DNA from: Saonia flava
GTDB taxonomy: Bacteria; Bacteroidota; Bacteroidia; Flavobacteriales; Flavobacteriaceae
Length of the DNA: 64,000 nt
Direction: 5' to 3'
Assembly: GCF_011927795.1 (NCBI RefSeq)
Contig: NZ_JAATJJ010000001.1
Location: forward strand, 1,353,397-1,417,396
Part shown: in pieces, positions 54,930 through 61,115 of the stretch
How positions within the stretch are numbered: position 1 is the stretch's first letter
How the letters are laid out: every line of letters begins with the position of its first letter
Made by a program: the position numbers and the translations under genes
The notes under the pieces: model-generated
Seen by the model: only the letters and a program-made list of their open reading frames with translations
Databases searched by the model: none
Told to the model about the DNA's origin: nothing

Positions 54930-56390
54930 TCATTTATTTAAACTAGTCAATAATTCCTTTACAATCTTAAAATCATCAAAATCCGTTCGTTCACCGTTTG
55001 TTTCCTGATAGGTCTCATGCCCTTTTCCGGCCACAAGAATAATATCATTGCCAACTGCCAATTGACAGGCTGTTTTTATGGCCTGTTCGCGATTCTCGAT
55101 GGAGAGTATTTTTTTTATATTTTGGGGCTCTACACCTGCTTCCATTTCTTCAATTATCAGGGCTGCAGATTCCGTACGGGGGTTATCTGATGTGAAAATT
55201 GTCTTATTGCTCATTTCTGAAGCGATATGACCCATAACCGGGCGCTTAGACTTATCTCTGTCACCACCACACCCCACTACGGTGATAACATTTTCATTTC
55301 CAGTCCTCAATGCATTGATAGTATCAAGTACATTTTTAAGCGCATCCGGCGTATGGGCATAATCAACAATTGCCGTTATTTTTTCTTTAGATATATAATA
55401 TTGAAATCTTCCGTCCACATTTTCCAATTCACTCAGAAGGCGGAGTGTTTCCATTTTTTCCAACCCCAACAAATCAGCCGTTGCATAAATTGCCAACATG
55501 TTATAGGCATTAAAGTCTCCTATTAATTTTGACCATAATTCATTGTCATCAATCTTTAAAAGTTGACCATGAAACTGATTTTCCAAAATATTTGCCCTAT
55601 AATCTGCATAGGTCTTTAAAGCATAGGTATACTTCTTGGCCTTGGTATTTTGCAACATTACCAAACCATTCTTATCATCAATATTGGAAAGGGCAAACGC
55701 CTTTTTTGGAAGATTATCGAACAATTTTTTCTTGGTATCCCTATACTCAGCAAAGGTCTTATGATAATCCAAATGATCATGGGATAGATTTGTAAAAATT
55801 GCCCCTTCAAAGACCAAGCCCTCTGTTCTTTTTTGGTGGATTCCATGCGAGCTCACCTCCATAAAACAAAATTCCACGCCTGCATCATTCATTAAACTTA
55901 AATGTTTGTTTATAACCAATGCATCTGGAGTAGTGTGGGACGTAGCATATTGTTCATCGTCCACCATAATTTTTATTGTGGAAATTAATCCAACCTTATA
56001 CCCAGCCCTTTTGAACAATTGATACAAAAGGCTACTGACAGTAGTTTTTCCATTGGTACCGGTAACAGCCACCAGCTTCAAATTTTTAGATGGATTTCCA
56101 TAGAAATTTGAAGCCATAATAGCTAAAGCTTTTGCTCCATTATCAACCTCAAGATAGGTAACACCATTTACCATGTTTTTGGGCAATTCTTCACATACAA
56201 TGGCCTTGGCTCCTGCATCAACGGTTTTGGCTATGTACTTATGGCCATCTGTAACTGTTCCTTTTATAGCCACAAAGACATCGTCCATTCCTACTTTTCT
56301 AGAATCAAAGCATATGGTATTTACCATTGTATTTGTAGTTCCACTTACTGCAGAAAGACCAACTCCATATAATATGTCTTTAAGCAACAT
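54930..56390 (-). CDS. murE: UDP-N-acetylmuramoyl-L-alanyl-D-glutamate--diaminopimelate ligase
   Basis: 486 residues from ATG 56390, which overlaps the ftsI stop (TGATG); a GTG one codon upstream is also possible. Adds the third stem-peptide residue. [18 protein letters not shown] is the ATP loop, [17 protein letters not shown] and [10 protein letters not shown] follow. The DNPR motif is the hallmark of meso-diaminopimelate-adding enzymes (lysine-adding ones differ here), so the wall should contain meso-DAP. Confidence 0.97.
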
Positions 56391-58396
56391 CACGATAGTT
56401 CCAATACTATTTTTTTAACCTTATTCAAATCTGTTCCCTGGGATATAGATTGTTCTTTTACTTTTCCGTTTCCTTTGACCTCAACTTTTAATCCTAAATT
56501 TTCAAGAATGGAAACAGCATCCATTCCGCTCATACCTTTTACATTGGGCATAGTGCTGTACTTTTTTTGAGCTTCCGCATAGTATCCCTCATACTTTAAT
56601 TCCAACTCATTGTTTTGGGGCTTTAGAAACTCCACTTCATCTGTCTTTGGAGAAATAGTATATATTTTCTGGGCAATTGATTTAAAAACCGGACCGGAAA
56701 CATCGGCACCATAATATCCAACGCCCCTATCGGGCTCATGAATCACTACAATGCAAGAATATTTTGGATTGTCTGCTGGAAAATACCCAGCAAAAGATGA
56801 AATGTATTTTAACTTATCCGGATCCTTAGAAACATAGTTTTTCTGCGTAGTGCCTGTTTTTCCTGCCATTGAAAAATTTTCAGTATACAATCCATGCCCA
56901 GTTCCATGTTTTTTTTCGACCACATTCTTTAGCAACTGCTTTACCTTTCCAGCCGTTTCTTTGGAACAAATAGATGAATTGATAACCTCCTTATCAAACT
57001 TCAGAATGGTCTTGTTCCATTCCTTGACCTCTTTAATCAATCGAGGTCTTAACATTTCACCATCATTGGCAATGGCATTATAAAAAGAAAGTGTTTGCAA
57101 TGGGGTTAAGGACACTTCATAGCCATGGGACATCCAAGCCAAAGAAATACCGGACCATCCCTTATCTCCTGGATATCTTATAACTGGCGCACCCTCCCCT
57201 TTAATGGGCATTCCCAATTCTTTATGAAGACCCATATTCATTAGCCTATTCACAAACTTTTCTGGGTTCTCCTTATAATTATTATGAATCATTTTAGCAA
57301 AAGCCGTGTTAGAGGATACTTCAAAAGCTTTAGAAAGAGAAATCTCTCCATATCCTCCCCATTTAGAATCTCTTACAGTTCTATCATACACCTTAAATCT
57401 TCCTTTTTCGGTATCAAGTACAGTACTGGTATCCACTACTTTATCCTCTAAAGCGGCAACCATGGACATTAGCTTAAATGTTGAGCCGGGTTCATGGGAT
57501 TCTCCTACCGCATAGTTTAGCCTTTCATAATATTTACCCTCTGCCGTTCTTCCTAAATTGGAAATAGCCTTTACTTCTCCTGTTTTAGTCTCCATGACAA
57601 TGACACAACCATGGTCTGCTTTATAATGTTCCAATTGCCTCAACAAAGCGTGATGTGCAATATCCTGAATATTAATATTAATAGTAGAAACCACATCATA
57701 GCCATCCTTAGGTTCCACAATATTGTCCAACCCAATAGGCTTCCATTGTCCTTTAGCAATTTTCTGCTTTAAACGTTTACCCTCAACACCTCTTAAGTAT
57801 TGCCCAAAAGCCCCTTCCAGTCCAACTCTGGTATAATATCCATTTTCATCCACGCGTTCATAGCCAACACTACGTTCAGCAATTTTTCCCAAAGGATGCT
57901 CTCGAACGATTTTTTGCTCCGCAATAAAACCCCCTCTATTAGGCCCCTTCTTAAAAAGAGGAAATGTTTTCACTTTTATATAGTCAGAATAGTCAAGATT
58001 TCTAGCAATAAGGGCGTATCTATTTTTGTTGACTTTTGCTTTTCTTAAAATTTGTTCGTAATAAGAAGACGGTTTACTTAGCAATTTGGAGAGCTCATTG
58101 GAAAGCGGTCTGATGTTTTCCTCAAAATCAACATCTTTAACAGTTTCAGCATCAAAACGAATTGTATATCTGGATACCGAAGTTGCCAATAGGCTACCAT
58201 CATCTGAATACAGATTACCCCTATTGGGTTCTATGGTAAACATCCTTTCTGTACGCTGCATGGCCAAATTCTTGTACTTATCACCATCCACCATTTGTAT
58301 CCTCGTCATTTTAAATACCACAGCAAAAGCAAAGACAAAAAGAAATCCTGCCACTATATATAATCTGGTCAATATTTTTTTTTCTGTTACTGCCAC
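56390..58396 (-). CDS. ftsI: Division transpeptidase FtsI/PBP3 with a PASTA domain
   Basis: 668 residues, GTG start at 58396 overlapping the ftsL stop (TAGTG). N-terminal membrane helix (~9-29), PBP dimerisation domain, then the transpeptidase: active-site Ser in EPGSTFKLMS, second motif SSNTAFA, third motif GKTGTTQKNY. One PASTA domain at the C-terminus (TMPNVKGMSGMDAVSILENLG to the end), an extra common in Bacteroidota and Firmicutes PBPs and absent from E. coli FtsI. It cross-links septal peptidoglycan together with FtsW. Confidence 0.95.
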   Translation of the reverse strand: MAVTEKKILTRLYIVAGFLFVFAFAVVFKMTRIQMVDGDKYKNLAMQRTERMFTIEPNRGNLYSDDGSLLATSVSRYTIRFDAETVKDVDFEENIRPLSNELSKLLSKPSSYYEQILRKAKVNKNRYALIARNLDYSDYIKVKTFPLFKKGPNRGGFIAEQKIVREHPLGKIAERSVGYERVDENGYYTRVGLEGAFGQYLRGVEGKRLKQKIAKGQWKPIGLDNIVEPKDGYDVVSTININIQDIAHHALLRQLEHYKADHGCVIVMETKTGEVKAISNLGRTAEGKYYERLNYAVGESHEPGSTFKLMSMVAALEDKVVDTSTVLDTEKGRFKVYDRTVRDSKWGGYGEISLSKAFEVSSNTAFAKMIHNNYKENPEKFVNRLMNMGLHKELGMPIKGEGAPVIRYPGDKGWSGISLAWMSHGYEVSLTPLQTLSFYNAIANDGEMLRPRLIKEVKEWNKTILKFDKEVINSSICSKETAGKVKQLLKNVVEKKHGTGHGLYTENFSMAGKTGTTQKNYVSKDPDKLKYISSFAGYFPADNPKYSCIVVIHEPDRGVGYYGADVSGPVFKSIAQKIYTISPKTDEVEFLKPQNNELELKYEGYYAEAQKKYSTMPNVKGMSGMDAVSILENLGLKVEVKGNGKVKEQSISQGTDLNKVKKIVLELS

Positions 58397-58713
58397 TATT
58401 CTATTGCCTTAACCTTTATTTTTTTTGGTGGAGTTTCTGACGGGTACAAACCCTTTGCCTCCACAACTTGCATTACTTTGGATTCCAATTTTAATCTTTG
58501 AACATCACCACGGGTATCCACAAACTCACTTCGTAATTCTTTCACCTCTTCATTTAATGCCGCTATTTGATGTACTTTTTTATCTGCACTATGGGAACTT
58601 GCAATCATCACCACTGCCAAAAAGGAAAAGAAAAAAATGAACAGCCAATTTTTTGGGGCATCTCCACTTATTAAAAACTTTCCTTTTAATATGTCCAATA
58701 GTCCTTTTTTCAT
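58396..58713 (-). CDS. ftsL: FtsL-like division protein
   Basis: 105 residues, bitopic: cytoplasmic start MKKGLLDILKGKFLISGDAPKN, membrane helix ~24-41 (WLFIFFFSFLAVVMIASS), periplasmic coiled coil (VHQIAALNEEVKELRSEFVDTRGDVQRLKLESKV). FtsL forms a complex with FtsQ and DivIC/FtsB in the divisome. The sequence is poorly conserved across bacteria; the assignment rests on topology and on the position between rsmH and ftsI. Confidence 0.85.
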   Translation of the reverse strand: MKKGLLDILKGKFLISGDAPKNWLFIFFFSFLAVVMIASSHSADKKVHQIAALNEEVKELRSEFVDTRGDVQRLKLESKVMQVVEAKGLYPSETPPKKIKVKAIE

Positions 58714-58716
58714 TTT

Positions 58717-59613
58717 CTATATTCTTTCAGCTATTCTCAGTTTAGCACTTCGAGCTCTATTATTTAATTTTATTTCTTCAGCTGATGGAGTAACCAACCC
58801 TCCTACTTTTTTAAAGGGCACATTAACATTACCATAAAAATCTTTCTCAGCCTCTCCCTCAAATTTACCTTCCCGAACAAATCTTTTTACCAACCTATCT
58901 TCCAAGGAGTGATAGCTTAAAATGCTCAATCTCCCTCCTTTATTAATTAAATCCGGTGTCTGTAGCAAGAATTCCTTTATTACCTGAATTTCTTGATTTA
59001 CCTCAATACGAATGGCCTGATATATCTGGGCCAAAATTTTATGCTCTTTAAACTTTGGCAAAAACCTTTGCAACACCTTTTTTAATTCCTCAGTAGTCTT
59101 TATTGGGGACTCTTCCCTGTACTCCACTATTGTTTTTGACAAAGCATTGGCATTTCTTAAATCCCCGTACTCAAAAAAAACCTTTCTTAAATCATCATAG
59201 GAATATTGGTTTACCACTTGAAAAGCGGAAACACTATTTTTTTTACTCATTCTCATATCCAAATCAGCATCAAACCTTGTGGAAAAACCACGTTCCGCTT
59301 TATCAAATTGATGAGAAGAAACCCCAAAATCTGCTAGGATTCCATCTACTTTCCGAATGCCATAGAACTTTAAAAACTGAGTTATGTACCTAAAATTTTC
59401 ATTAATCAGGGTAAACCTTTCATCTTTCAAGGCATTTTGCAACGCATCTTCATCTTGGTCAAATGCATATAGCTTGCCTTCATTGCCCAGCCTTTTCAAT
59501 ATTTCTTTAGAATGCCCTCCACCGCCAAAGGTCACATCCACGTACACTCCATTTTGCTTTATGCCTAGACCATCTACAGTCTCTTTGAGCAATACTGGAC
59601 TATGGTAACTCAT
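58717..59613 (-). CDS. rsmH: 16S rRNA (cytosine-1402-N4)-methyltransferase
   Basis: 298 residues. N4-methylates C1402 in the 16S decoding centre. MSYHSPVLLKETVDGL, SAM motif YVDVTFGGGGHSKEIL, FDQDEDALQNAL, GILADFGVSSHQFD, ERGFSTRFDADLDMRM and SILSYHSLEDRLVKRF are family hallmarks. Its start overlaps the end of mraZ by 14 bp. Confidence 0.97.
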   Translation of the reverse strand: MSYHSPVLLKETVDGLGIKQNGVYVDVTFGGGGHSKEILKRLGNEGKLYAFDQDEDALQNALKDERFTLINENFRYITQFLKFYGIRKVDGILADFGVSSHQFDKAERGFSTRFDADLDMRMSKKNSVSAFQVVNQYSYDDLRKVFFEYGDLRNANALSKTIVEYREESPIKTTEELKKVLQRFLPKFKEHKILAQIYQAIRIEVNQEIQVIKEFLLQTPDLINKGGRLSILSYHSLEDRLVKRFVREGKFEGEAEKDFYGNVNVPFKKVGGLVTPSAEEIKLNNRARSAKLRIAERI

Positions 59614-60073
59614 CGGCTTCTGTCTTCTTACTTCCCATGGACTCCTCTGCCATTTTAGCTACCTCCTCATCTGACACATTTATGGTTTCTTCATATCCAT
59701 CCTTGTCCCAAACTTCAATAAAACCAACAGAACAGGTCAAAACCACTTCTTTACTGATACCAGCAAATTCTACTAAGTTTTTTGGGATTTGCAATCTTCC
59801 CGTACCATCTATTTCAACAGGTGCCAAACCAGCCGTATAAATCCTAAAAAAAGTATTGTTTACTTTATCAAAACTATTCTGCTCCCTTAACTGCTTGCTT
59901 ATATCGTTCCAGTACTCCATTGGATGTAGTTCCAAACAACGTTGAAACATTGATCTCTTAAGAACAAAGCCGTCATTAAGCACAGGTGCCAGCTGTTTTT
60001 TTAGCACAGTTGGCAACATAATCCTACCTTTGGTATCGGCTTTACAATTAAATTGTCCTATGAGATTAATCAC
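59600..60073 (-). CDS. mraZ: MraZ transcriptional regulator
   Basis: 157 residues from GTG 60073 (MINLIGQFNC; no in-frame ATG upstream). Two SpoVT-AbrB-like halves, each with the DxxxR motif of the family: KADTKGRIMLP near residue 12 and EIDGTGRLQIP near residue 88. MraZ forms a ring that binds direct repeats in its own promoter and regulates the dcw operon. Its binding repeats are visible just upstream (60124-60202). The C-terminal ~15 residues (SMGSKKTEADELP) are polar and unstructured. Confidence 0.96.
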   Translation of the reverse strand: MINLIGQFNCKADTKGRIMLPTVLKKQLAPVLNDGFVLKRSMFQRCLELHPMEYWNDISKQLREQNSFDKVNNTFFRIYTAGLAPVEIDGTGRLQIPKNLVEFAGISKEVVLTCSVGFIEVWDKDGYEETINVSDEEVAKMAEESMGSKKTEADELP

Positions 60074-60103: not shown

Positions 60104-60111
60104 CAAATATA
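60104..60111 (-). promoter_or_regulatory. -7 element of the dcw operon (minus strand TATATTTG)
   Basis: Minus-strand TATATTTG fits TAnnTTTG, 30 bp before the mraZ GTG. The region where a -33 element would sit (about 60130-60140) is occupied by MraZ boxes. Confidence 0.5.
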
Positions 60112-60123
60112 TAGAAATTATTA

Positions 60124-60202
60124 CCACATTTTTCCACTTTTCTCCATAATTTACCACTTTGTTGATAAATTTTTCCACTTTCGCATGCCTAAAACCCACT
60201 TT
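60124..60202 (-). promoter_or_regulatory. MraZ operator: six phased repeats
   Basis: On the minus strand AAAGTGG occurs exactly four times (60134-60140, 60154-60160, 60175-60181, 60196-60202) with two degenerate copies (AATGTGG 60124-60130, ATTATGG 60144-60150). The four proximal copies are spaced exactly 10 bp apart and the outer two follow at 21-bp steps. MraZ sites described in E. coli (TGGG-type) and Mycoplasma (AAAGTG-type) are direct repeats with about 10-bp period. The array sits over the -33 region of the mraZ promoter. Confidence 0.75.
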
Positions 60203-60291
60203 AATGAAGAAAAGCACGGCTGATATTTGACCTATTTCCACAAAAAAATCAATGGTTTATGAGGTATAGATTACATGTGCTGACAATACTT

Positions 60292-60324
60292 TTGCATGGT
60301 ATTATATGGAAATGTATATATTTG
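60292..60324 (+). promoter_or_regulatory. Promoter of the alpha/beta hydrolase gene
   Basis: TTG at 60292-60294, 22 bp spacer, TATATTTG at 60317-60324: both elements at consensus spacing. Leader about 20 nt before ATG 60351. The 277-bp gap between the divergent mraZ and hydrolase genes thus holds both promoters and the MraZ boxes. Confidence 0.6.
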
Positions 60325-60350: not shown

Positions 60351-61115
60351 ATGGAAGAAAAAATTATTACAGATGGAAAATACCGATATATAGAAATAGG
60401 GGATGGAACCCCTATTATTATATTACATGGTTTGATGGGGGGATTGAGTAATTTTCAAGGAGTTACGGAGTATTTTCCAGAAAAAGGCTATAAGGTCTTA
60501 ATTCCTGAACTACCCATCTATGACATGCCGTTATTAAAAACCAATGTGAAATTTTTTGCAAAGTTTTTAGAGAAATTCATTGAGCATAAAGGTTTAAAGG
60601 ATGTTATCCTATTGGGAAACTCCTTGGGTGGCCATATTGGGTTATTGCACACCAAACTATATCCTGAAATGGTAAAAGCATTAGTAATTACAGGAAGTTC
60701 TGGCCTTTATGAAAGCGCCATGGGTGATGGATATCCCAAGCGAGGTGATTATGAGTTCATAAAAAAGAAGGCACAGGATGTTTTTTATGATCCCGAAGTG
60801 GCAACAAAAGAAATAGTTGATGAAGTTTTTGCAACGGTTAACGACCGAATGAAGCTTGTAAAAACATTGTCCATTGCCAAAAGTGCCATACGTCATAACA
60901 TGTCCAAGGATTTGCCGCATATGCACACTCCAACCTGTATTATATGGGGCGAGAATGACTCTGTTACTCCGCCTAATGTAGCAAAGGAATTTCATGAACT
61001 TCTACCGGATTCCGACTTGTTTTGGATTGAAAAATGTGGACACGCACCTATGATGGAACATCCGAAAGAGTTTAATGAGTTATTGGATGCTTGGCTTACA
61101 GAACGTAAATTCTAA
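60351..61115 (+). CDS. Alpha/beta hydrolase
   Basis: 254 residues. Oxyanion motif LHGLMGG at ~25-31, nucleophile elbow GNSLGG with Ser91, acid Asp in WGENDSVTPP, and His in CGHAPMMEHP near the C-terminus, giving a complete catalytic triad. The substrate is unknown; it could be an esterase or C-C bond hydrolase. It is divergent from the dcw operon and 14 bp before engB, an arrangement I know from other flavobacteria. Confidence 0.9.
   Translation: MEEKIITDGKYRYIEIGDGTPIIILHGLMGGLSNFQGVTEYFPEKGYKVLIPELPIYDMPLLKTNVKFFAKFLEKFIEHKGLKDVILLGNSLGGHIGLLHTKLYPEMVKALVITGSSGLYESAMGDGYPKRGDYEFIKKKAQDVFYDPEVATKEIVDEVFATVNDRMKLVKTLSIAKSAIRHNMSKDLPHMHTPTCIIWGENDSVTPPNVAKEFHELLPDSDLFWIEKCGHAPMMEHPKEFNELLDAWLTERKF

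Follow-up and report, generated by a model that had tools for sequence, protein, structure and literature searches.

The dcw promoter in the window (the whole 64,000-nucleotide stretch of Saonia flava DNA that was analyzed) is probably repressed by MraZ, the product of its own first gene, at the -33 region, and a lineage-specific DnaA site would provide a second input. From the comparison of sequences, we assign this reading a probability of about 0.62. The six-box count is a genus-level variant of the operator; the DnaA-like site fused to the array is its more interesting content.

The genes and promoter elements of the region are as follows. The names of the first three ORFs are based on sequence and synteny.

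54930-56393: murE-type ORF
56390-58396: FtsI-type penicillin-binding protein
58396-58713: small ORF at the ftsL position
58717-59613: rsmH/mraW, the next gene after mraZ (PF01795, E = 2e-93)
59600-60073, minus strand: mraZ, GTG start, 157 amino acids, first dcw gene (PF02381 in two stretches, E = 2.8e-21)
60104-60111, minus strand: TATATTTG, -7 element of the Bacteroidota promoter type (TAnnTTTG), 12 nt beyond the last MraZ box
60124-60130, minus strand: MraZ box 1 (numbering starts at the promoter), AATGTGG, covering the -33 position
60134-60140, minus strand: MraZ box 2, AAAGTGG
60144-60150, minus strand: MraZ box 3, degenerate (ATTATGG; unchanged in the sister genome)
60154-60160, minus strand: MraZ box 4, AAAGTGG, distal end of the 10-bp-phased core
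60160-60168, minus strand: TTATCAACA, candidate DnaA box of a lineage-specific form, overlapping MraZ box 4 by 1 bp
60175-60181, minus strand: MraZ box 5, AAAGTGG, located 21 bp upstream of the core and also present in the sister genome
60196-60202, minus strand: MraZ box 6, AAAGTGG, 42 bp upstream of the core, in this genus only

The protein carries a DXXXR motif in each half, D13-TKG-R17 (DTKGR) and D89-GTG-R93 (DGTGR), and D13, K15, G16, R17, D89 and R93 are invariant in an alignment of 18 MraZ sequences. Its profile matches solved MraZ structures, for example 1n0e and 9qlg. With the PF02381 domain, one DXXXR motif per half and a place at the head of the dcw genes followed by rsmH/mraW, it fits the MraZ family. 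The genome belongs to Flavobacteriaceae, and its nearest named relative by MraZ is the metagenome-assembled genome NORP20 (85% identity). The mraZ promoter has a good -7 element (TAnnTTTG) and no consensus -33 element.

All six boxes given in the preliminary description were found on the minus strand, and their steps of 10, 10, 10, 21 and 21 bp were reproduced. At 10.5 bp per turn, all six boxes keep to one helix face within roughly 50 degrees, in agreement with the claim that they face nearly the same side of the helix. Single heptamers are nothing unusual in the window (19 matches versus 12.4 expected). Five boxes of the form A[AT][ATG]GTGG lie inside 80 bp, whereas the maximum in 60 first-order Markov simulations of 64 kb was two boxes in 51 runs, one in eight runs and three in one run. 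Thus, the significance rests on clustering and not on the heptamer, which is common in the AT-rich window, and a chance origin of the cluster is excluded.

To define the conserved part of the operator, mraZ upstream regions from 126 Flavobacteriales (loci L003 to L139, one genome per species) were compared. A 10-bp-phased core was present in 125 of them, although promoter counts in this sample are phylogenetically non-independent, since 80 of the 126 belong to the closest MraZ relatives. This comparison of relatives had been suggested as a check of the array, and an absence of the boxes from related genomes was not what we found. The core consists of three boxes in 120 promoters, two boxes in three and four boxes in two. 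In the consensus AAAGTGG, the first three bases show A/T freedom and GTGG is nearly invariant. At least three AAAGTGG-like direct repeats about one helical turn apart stand upstream of mraZ, as in an MraZ operator. The TAnnTTTG element follows the last core box by 10-12 nt in 113 of the 125 promoters; the -33 position is thus covered by the last box, and the earlier proposal that boxes take the place of the -33 element holds beyond the window. A strict triple box was also searched in 31 whole genomes. It gave 13 matches, every one immediately upstream of mraZ, and the reversed-pattern control gave none in the same genomes. The operator thus shows specificity for the mraZ promoter.

Outside the core, an extra box was found 20-21 bp upstream in 40 of the 125 promoters (38 at 21 bp and two at 20 bp), and the histogram of upstream-box offsets has a sharp peak at 21 bp and almost nothing elsewhere. 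Most relatives have three boxes in total and 38 have four. Six boxes occur only in the window (L003) and in L004, the sole other available genome of the genus, which bears out the remark that so many are unusual; a four-box core with a second upstream box at 42 bp is likewise confined to these two. L004 keeps all six positions with identical spacing, box 6 being represented there by TAAGTGG, and both 14-bp upstream spacers have diverged. Thus, the conserved unit is the 10-bp-phased core, and the six-box array is a genus-level elaboration of an order-wide operator. A reading in which only the core is important, and the added upstream boxes are neutral remnants or arose by chance, would fit the restriction of boxes 5 and 6 together to one genus. 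We consider this quite improbable, because the sister genome has both boxes at the exact spacing despite divergence of the intervening spacers, and because 38 of the 125 promoters also have a box at -21.

By analogy with MraZ of other bacteria, we infer that MraZ binds the array and represses transcription. An MraZ ring along the phased core would occupy the -33 region and repress the dcw promoter. Since the core covers the -33 region of a promoter without a consensus -33 element, the bound ring would exclude the sigma factor of RNA polymerase. In this genus, a fourth, degenerate box has been added to the core and two further boxes, two helical turns apart, lengthen the array upstream; the added boxes probably give tighter or more graded cooperative binding of MraZ.

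The six GTGG units on one strand also raise the idea that a G-quadruplex on the G-rich strand regulates mraZ, as has been claimed for the S. aureus mraZ promoter (PMC11796246). Only two-G tracts are present here, with loops of eight or more AT-rich bases, and a quadruplex needs neither the conserved A-rich half of the box nor the exact 10-bp and 21-bp spacings. This explanation is highly improbable.

The preliminary description thus identified an MraZ-type operator at the dcw promoter correctly, as the identity of mraZ, the conservation in 125 of 126 promoters and the restriction of the triple box to mraZ indicate. It read the 79 bp as MraZ boxes alone, however, and overlooked TTATYAACA. In 97 of the 125 promoters, TTATYAAC adjoins the first core box with no gap, and in seven more it lies 1 bp away. 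The 9-mer TTATYAACA was found in 112 of the 126 mraZ upstream regions, versus 2.95 matches expected by shuffling, and the element is lost in about 10-15% of Flavobacteriales. Promoters in which the 9-mer is shifted by 1 bp from the MraZ box still have it in full, and where the two abut, the base of the box that serves as its ninth letter (the first of the box) is A in 120 of 122 cases. Therefore, TTATYAACA is an element in its own right.

The element resembles the E. coli DnaA box TTWTNCACA in being a 9-mer with a TTAT half and an ACA end. It differs in having A instead of C at position 6, so that TTATCAACA fails the E. coli consensus. The protein differs as well: in an alignment of the S. flava DnaA with domain IV of E. 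coli DnaA (1J1V), T435 and P423 are both replaced by Ala, while D433, H434, T436, H439 and R399 are conserved in Flavobacteriales DnaA. T435 and P423 are base-contact residues of DnaA (PMC7561715), and the E. coli T435M protein is defective in DnaA-box binding (PMC5742627).

We compared 53 genomes for which both DnaA and mraZ-upstream sequences were available. TTATYAACA was present near mraZ in 31 of 35 genomes with A435 and in one of 18 with S or T435 (Fisher p = 3e-9, uncorrected for relatedness). TTATNCACA showed the reverse trend (1/35 versus 8/18), with p-values that likewise ignore relatedness. An Ala at position 435 needs only three changes on the DnaA tree, so that few independent changes underlie the correlation. 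The 9-mer thus covaries with the recognition helix, as a lineage-specific DnaA box would, with one exception, G074, which has A435 yet carries TTTTCCACA at the slot. Many genomes with S435 have no DnaA-type site near mraZ.

The most telling case for a link to DnaA is G082 (L134). This genome is nested in Flavobacteriaceae (clade support 100/99), and its DnaA has S435. The slot beside the array holds TTATCCACA, the MraZ boxes keep their form, and a second TTATCCACA copy lies further upstream; the pair at hup described below is absent. In six of the seven genomes of family f15, whose DnaA has T435, plus-strand TTATCCACA was found upstream of mraZ, at a distance of about 180-205 nt from where the match starts. 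Only plus-strand copies were counted, since minus-strand matches beside mraZ can be MraZ boxes read backwards (TGTGGATAA). In six f15 loci (L155, L151, L152, L148, L149 and L158), the distance from the canonical TTATCCACA to the MraZ boxes downstream of it is about 90-120 bp.

Direct pairs of TTATYAACA were found in 24 of 31 relatives, most with a 20-bp period and upstream of hup, the gene for HU (PF00216). Such hup-upstream pairs occur in about two thirds of the 31 genomes, without MraZ boxes. In four genomes (L235, L240, L245 and L251), a pair lies between accA and dnaB (PF03796), directly upstream of dnaB. Pairs also stand upstream of genes for XerD-like recombinases, and in one genome a pair is located about 0.6 kb upstream of dnaA. 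Thus, the 9-mer is found at replication genes, again as would be expected of a lineage-specific DnaA box. Canonical pairs (TTATCCACA-N1-30-TTATCCACA) gave one match in the 31 genomes, and inverted TTATYAACA pairs were not enriched, being as rare as controls in most genomes.

The hup site of S. flava itself has the form TTATYAACA-N11-TTATYAACA (L247, 1501-1529; G000:C1:687335-687363) and is a second, independent conserved promoter element. This pair had been considered as an origin candidate and was rejected, as it is the hup promoter. Tandem copies with a 12-bp period were also seen: three in a complete genome (L376, 2012-2044; G015:C1:3873311-3873343), inside an ORF resembling phosphohistidine phosphatase, and two in G017 (L236).

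Two explanations without DnaA have to be weighed against these results. If the array were purely an MraZ operator, TTATYAAC would either lengthen the MraZ recognition sequence on its upstream side or provide a DNA shape that the MraZ ring needs. Its position against the array in most Flavobacteriales, beside an A-rich stretch, agrees with this idea. However, the 9-mer can be displaced by 1 bp from the box and still be intact, its pairs at hup and dnaB are not accompanied by MraZ boxes, the slot becomes TTATCCACA in G082 while the MraZ boxes are unchanged in form, and in family f15 the site is well upstream of the boxes. An explanation by MraZ alone is therefore distinctly unlikely.

Alternatively, TTATYAACA may be the site of another cell-cycle or nucleoid regulator acting on hup, dnaB, xerD and mraZ, and its likeness to a DnaA box accidental. 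The searches for an origin are in line with such a regulator, because no oriC-like cluster was found. In the dnaA regions of 30 Flavobacteriales, DnaA-like 9-mers were no commoner than the reversed control and TTATYAACA was not enriched; an origin near dnaA was rejected on this ground. In the 460 kb around the GC-skew minimum of S. flava (near G000:C1:2,158,000), where the skew would place the origin, neither TTATYAACA nor DnaA-like 9-mers formed a cluster, and no 9-mer was convincingly repeated. G074 also breaks the correlation with DnaA. On the other hand, the set of genes is replication-centered, the C-to-A difference at position 6 accompanies the replacement of a DnaA residue that contacts bases, the two revert together in G082, and canonical TTATCCACA is found near mraZ in relatives with T435. 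We regard a different regulator as unlikely, though it deserves some weight.

DnaA thus remains the preferred reading of the element. That DnaA binds TTATCAACA, and that TTATYAACA is the candidate DnaA box of Flavobacteriales, appears likely. Since TTATCAACA shares a base pair with MraZ box 4, DnaA is predicted to compete or cooperate with MraZ, and at this site it would feed the replication status into transcription of the division genes. Of the two directions, repression by DnaA is slightly favored; this preference comes from work on the B. subtilis ftsL operon, which is said to favor repression. A wider proposal, for which we see about even odds, is that an order-wide composite MraZ/DnaA switch exists. 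The DnaA specificity would have shifted from TTATCCACA to TTATYAACA via T435 and P423, with control of mraZ-dcw and HU and also, in certain lineages, of the replicative helicase, and sites overlapping the MraZ array would couple replication initiation to the division operon.

Both parts of the operator have counterparts in other bacteria. In Mollicutes, AAAGTG[T/G] direct repeats are located upstream of mraZ (Fisunov et al. 2016, as cited in PMC8475190), and the motif stated in the preliminary description to resemble that of Mycoplasma indeed matches them. According to the same source, M. genitalium has this motif at the mraZ promoter and nowhere else, and dcw expression rises when MraZ is lost (PMC8475190). 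The operator of the window is similar in its direct AAAGTGG-type repeats and in its specificity for mraZ. In contrast to Mollicutes, its promoter is of the Bacteroidota TAnnTTTG type, the boxes number up to six and fall into two classes by spacing (10 bp or 21 bp), and a DnaA-like site lies directly against them. The MraZ boxes of E. coli are of the TGGG type, from which those of the window differ in both sequence and copy number. E. coli MraZ is described as an autorepressor of dcw that acts on boxes in the mraZ upstream region (Eraso et al. 2014, as cited in PMC8475190). Within the literature searched, nothing relevant was found on MraZ in Bacteroidota, nor was a link between DnaA and MraZ found in this phylum.

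The nearest precedent for the DnaA input is the promoter region of ftsL in B. subtilis, where this gene belongs to the operon that mraZ heads. DnaA binds the ftsL promoter region in vivo, and it acts as a transcription factor at division genes, namely ftsL in B. subtilis and ftsZ in C. crescentus (PMC8203912). The dnaB gene of C. crescentus also has predicted DnaA boxes (PMC8203912). As in those two bacteria, a predicted DnaA site lies in a division-gene control region of Flavobacteriales; unlike them, Flavobacteriales would use TTATYAACA, a DnaA with Ala435 and a site fused to an MraZ array.

How the start of replication is coordinated with division in bacteria is poorly understood. Here, a site resembling that of the replication initiator is fixed against the repressor array of the division operon across a whole order, and the apparent natural switch in DnaA specificity acts as a built-in control. 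The sites offer precise targets in tractable strains, for example Flavobacterium johnsoniae. Moreover, if TTATYAACA is the DnaA box of Flavobacteriales, origin finding with the E. coli consensus would be misdirected in this order.

Several features of the neighborhood of mraZ were also noted. A TAnnTTTG-type -7 element, TACTTTTG (window 60287-60294, plus strand), serves the divergent alpha/beta-hydrolase gene (60351-61115, plus strand) and is separate from the mraZ promoter. In family f34 (G056, G088, G115, G130, G134, G142, G165 and G173), all eight sampled members were without an MraZ match, suggesting that mraZ was lost throughout this lineage. By mechanical assignment, the nearest in-frame start of mraZ among the 126 Flavobacteriales is GTG in 58, TTG in 31 and ATG in 37. 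Non-ATG starts are thus unusually frequent for one gene, and the window is among these cases (60071-60073). The GTG start codon of mraZ lies in an AAAGTGG-like box (AAAGTGGTAAAT) in 14 of the 126 Flavobacteriales, as seen in L045, L046, L047, L056, L059, L061, L073, L075, L079, L089, L123 and others. This box is possibly an extra operator inside the translation start.
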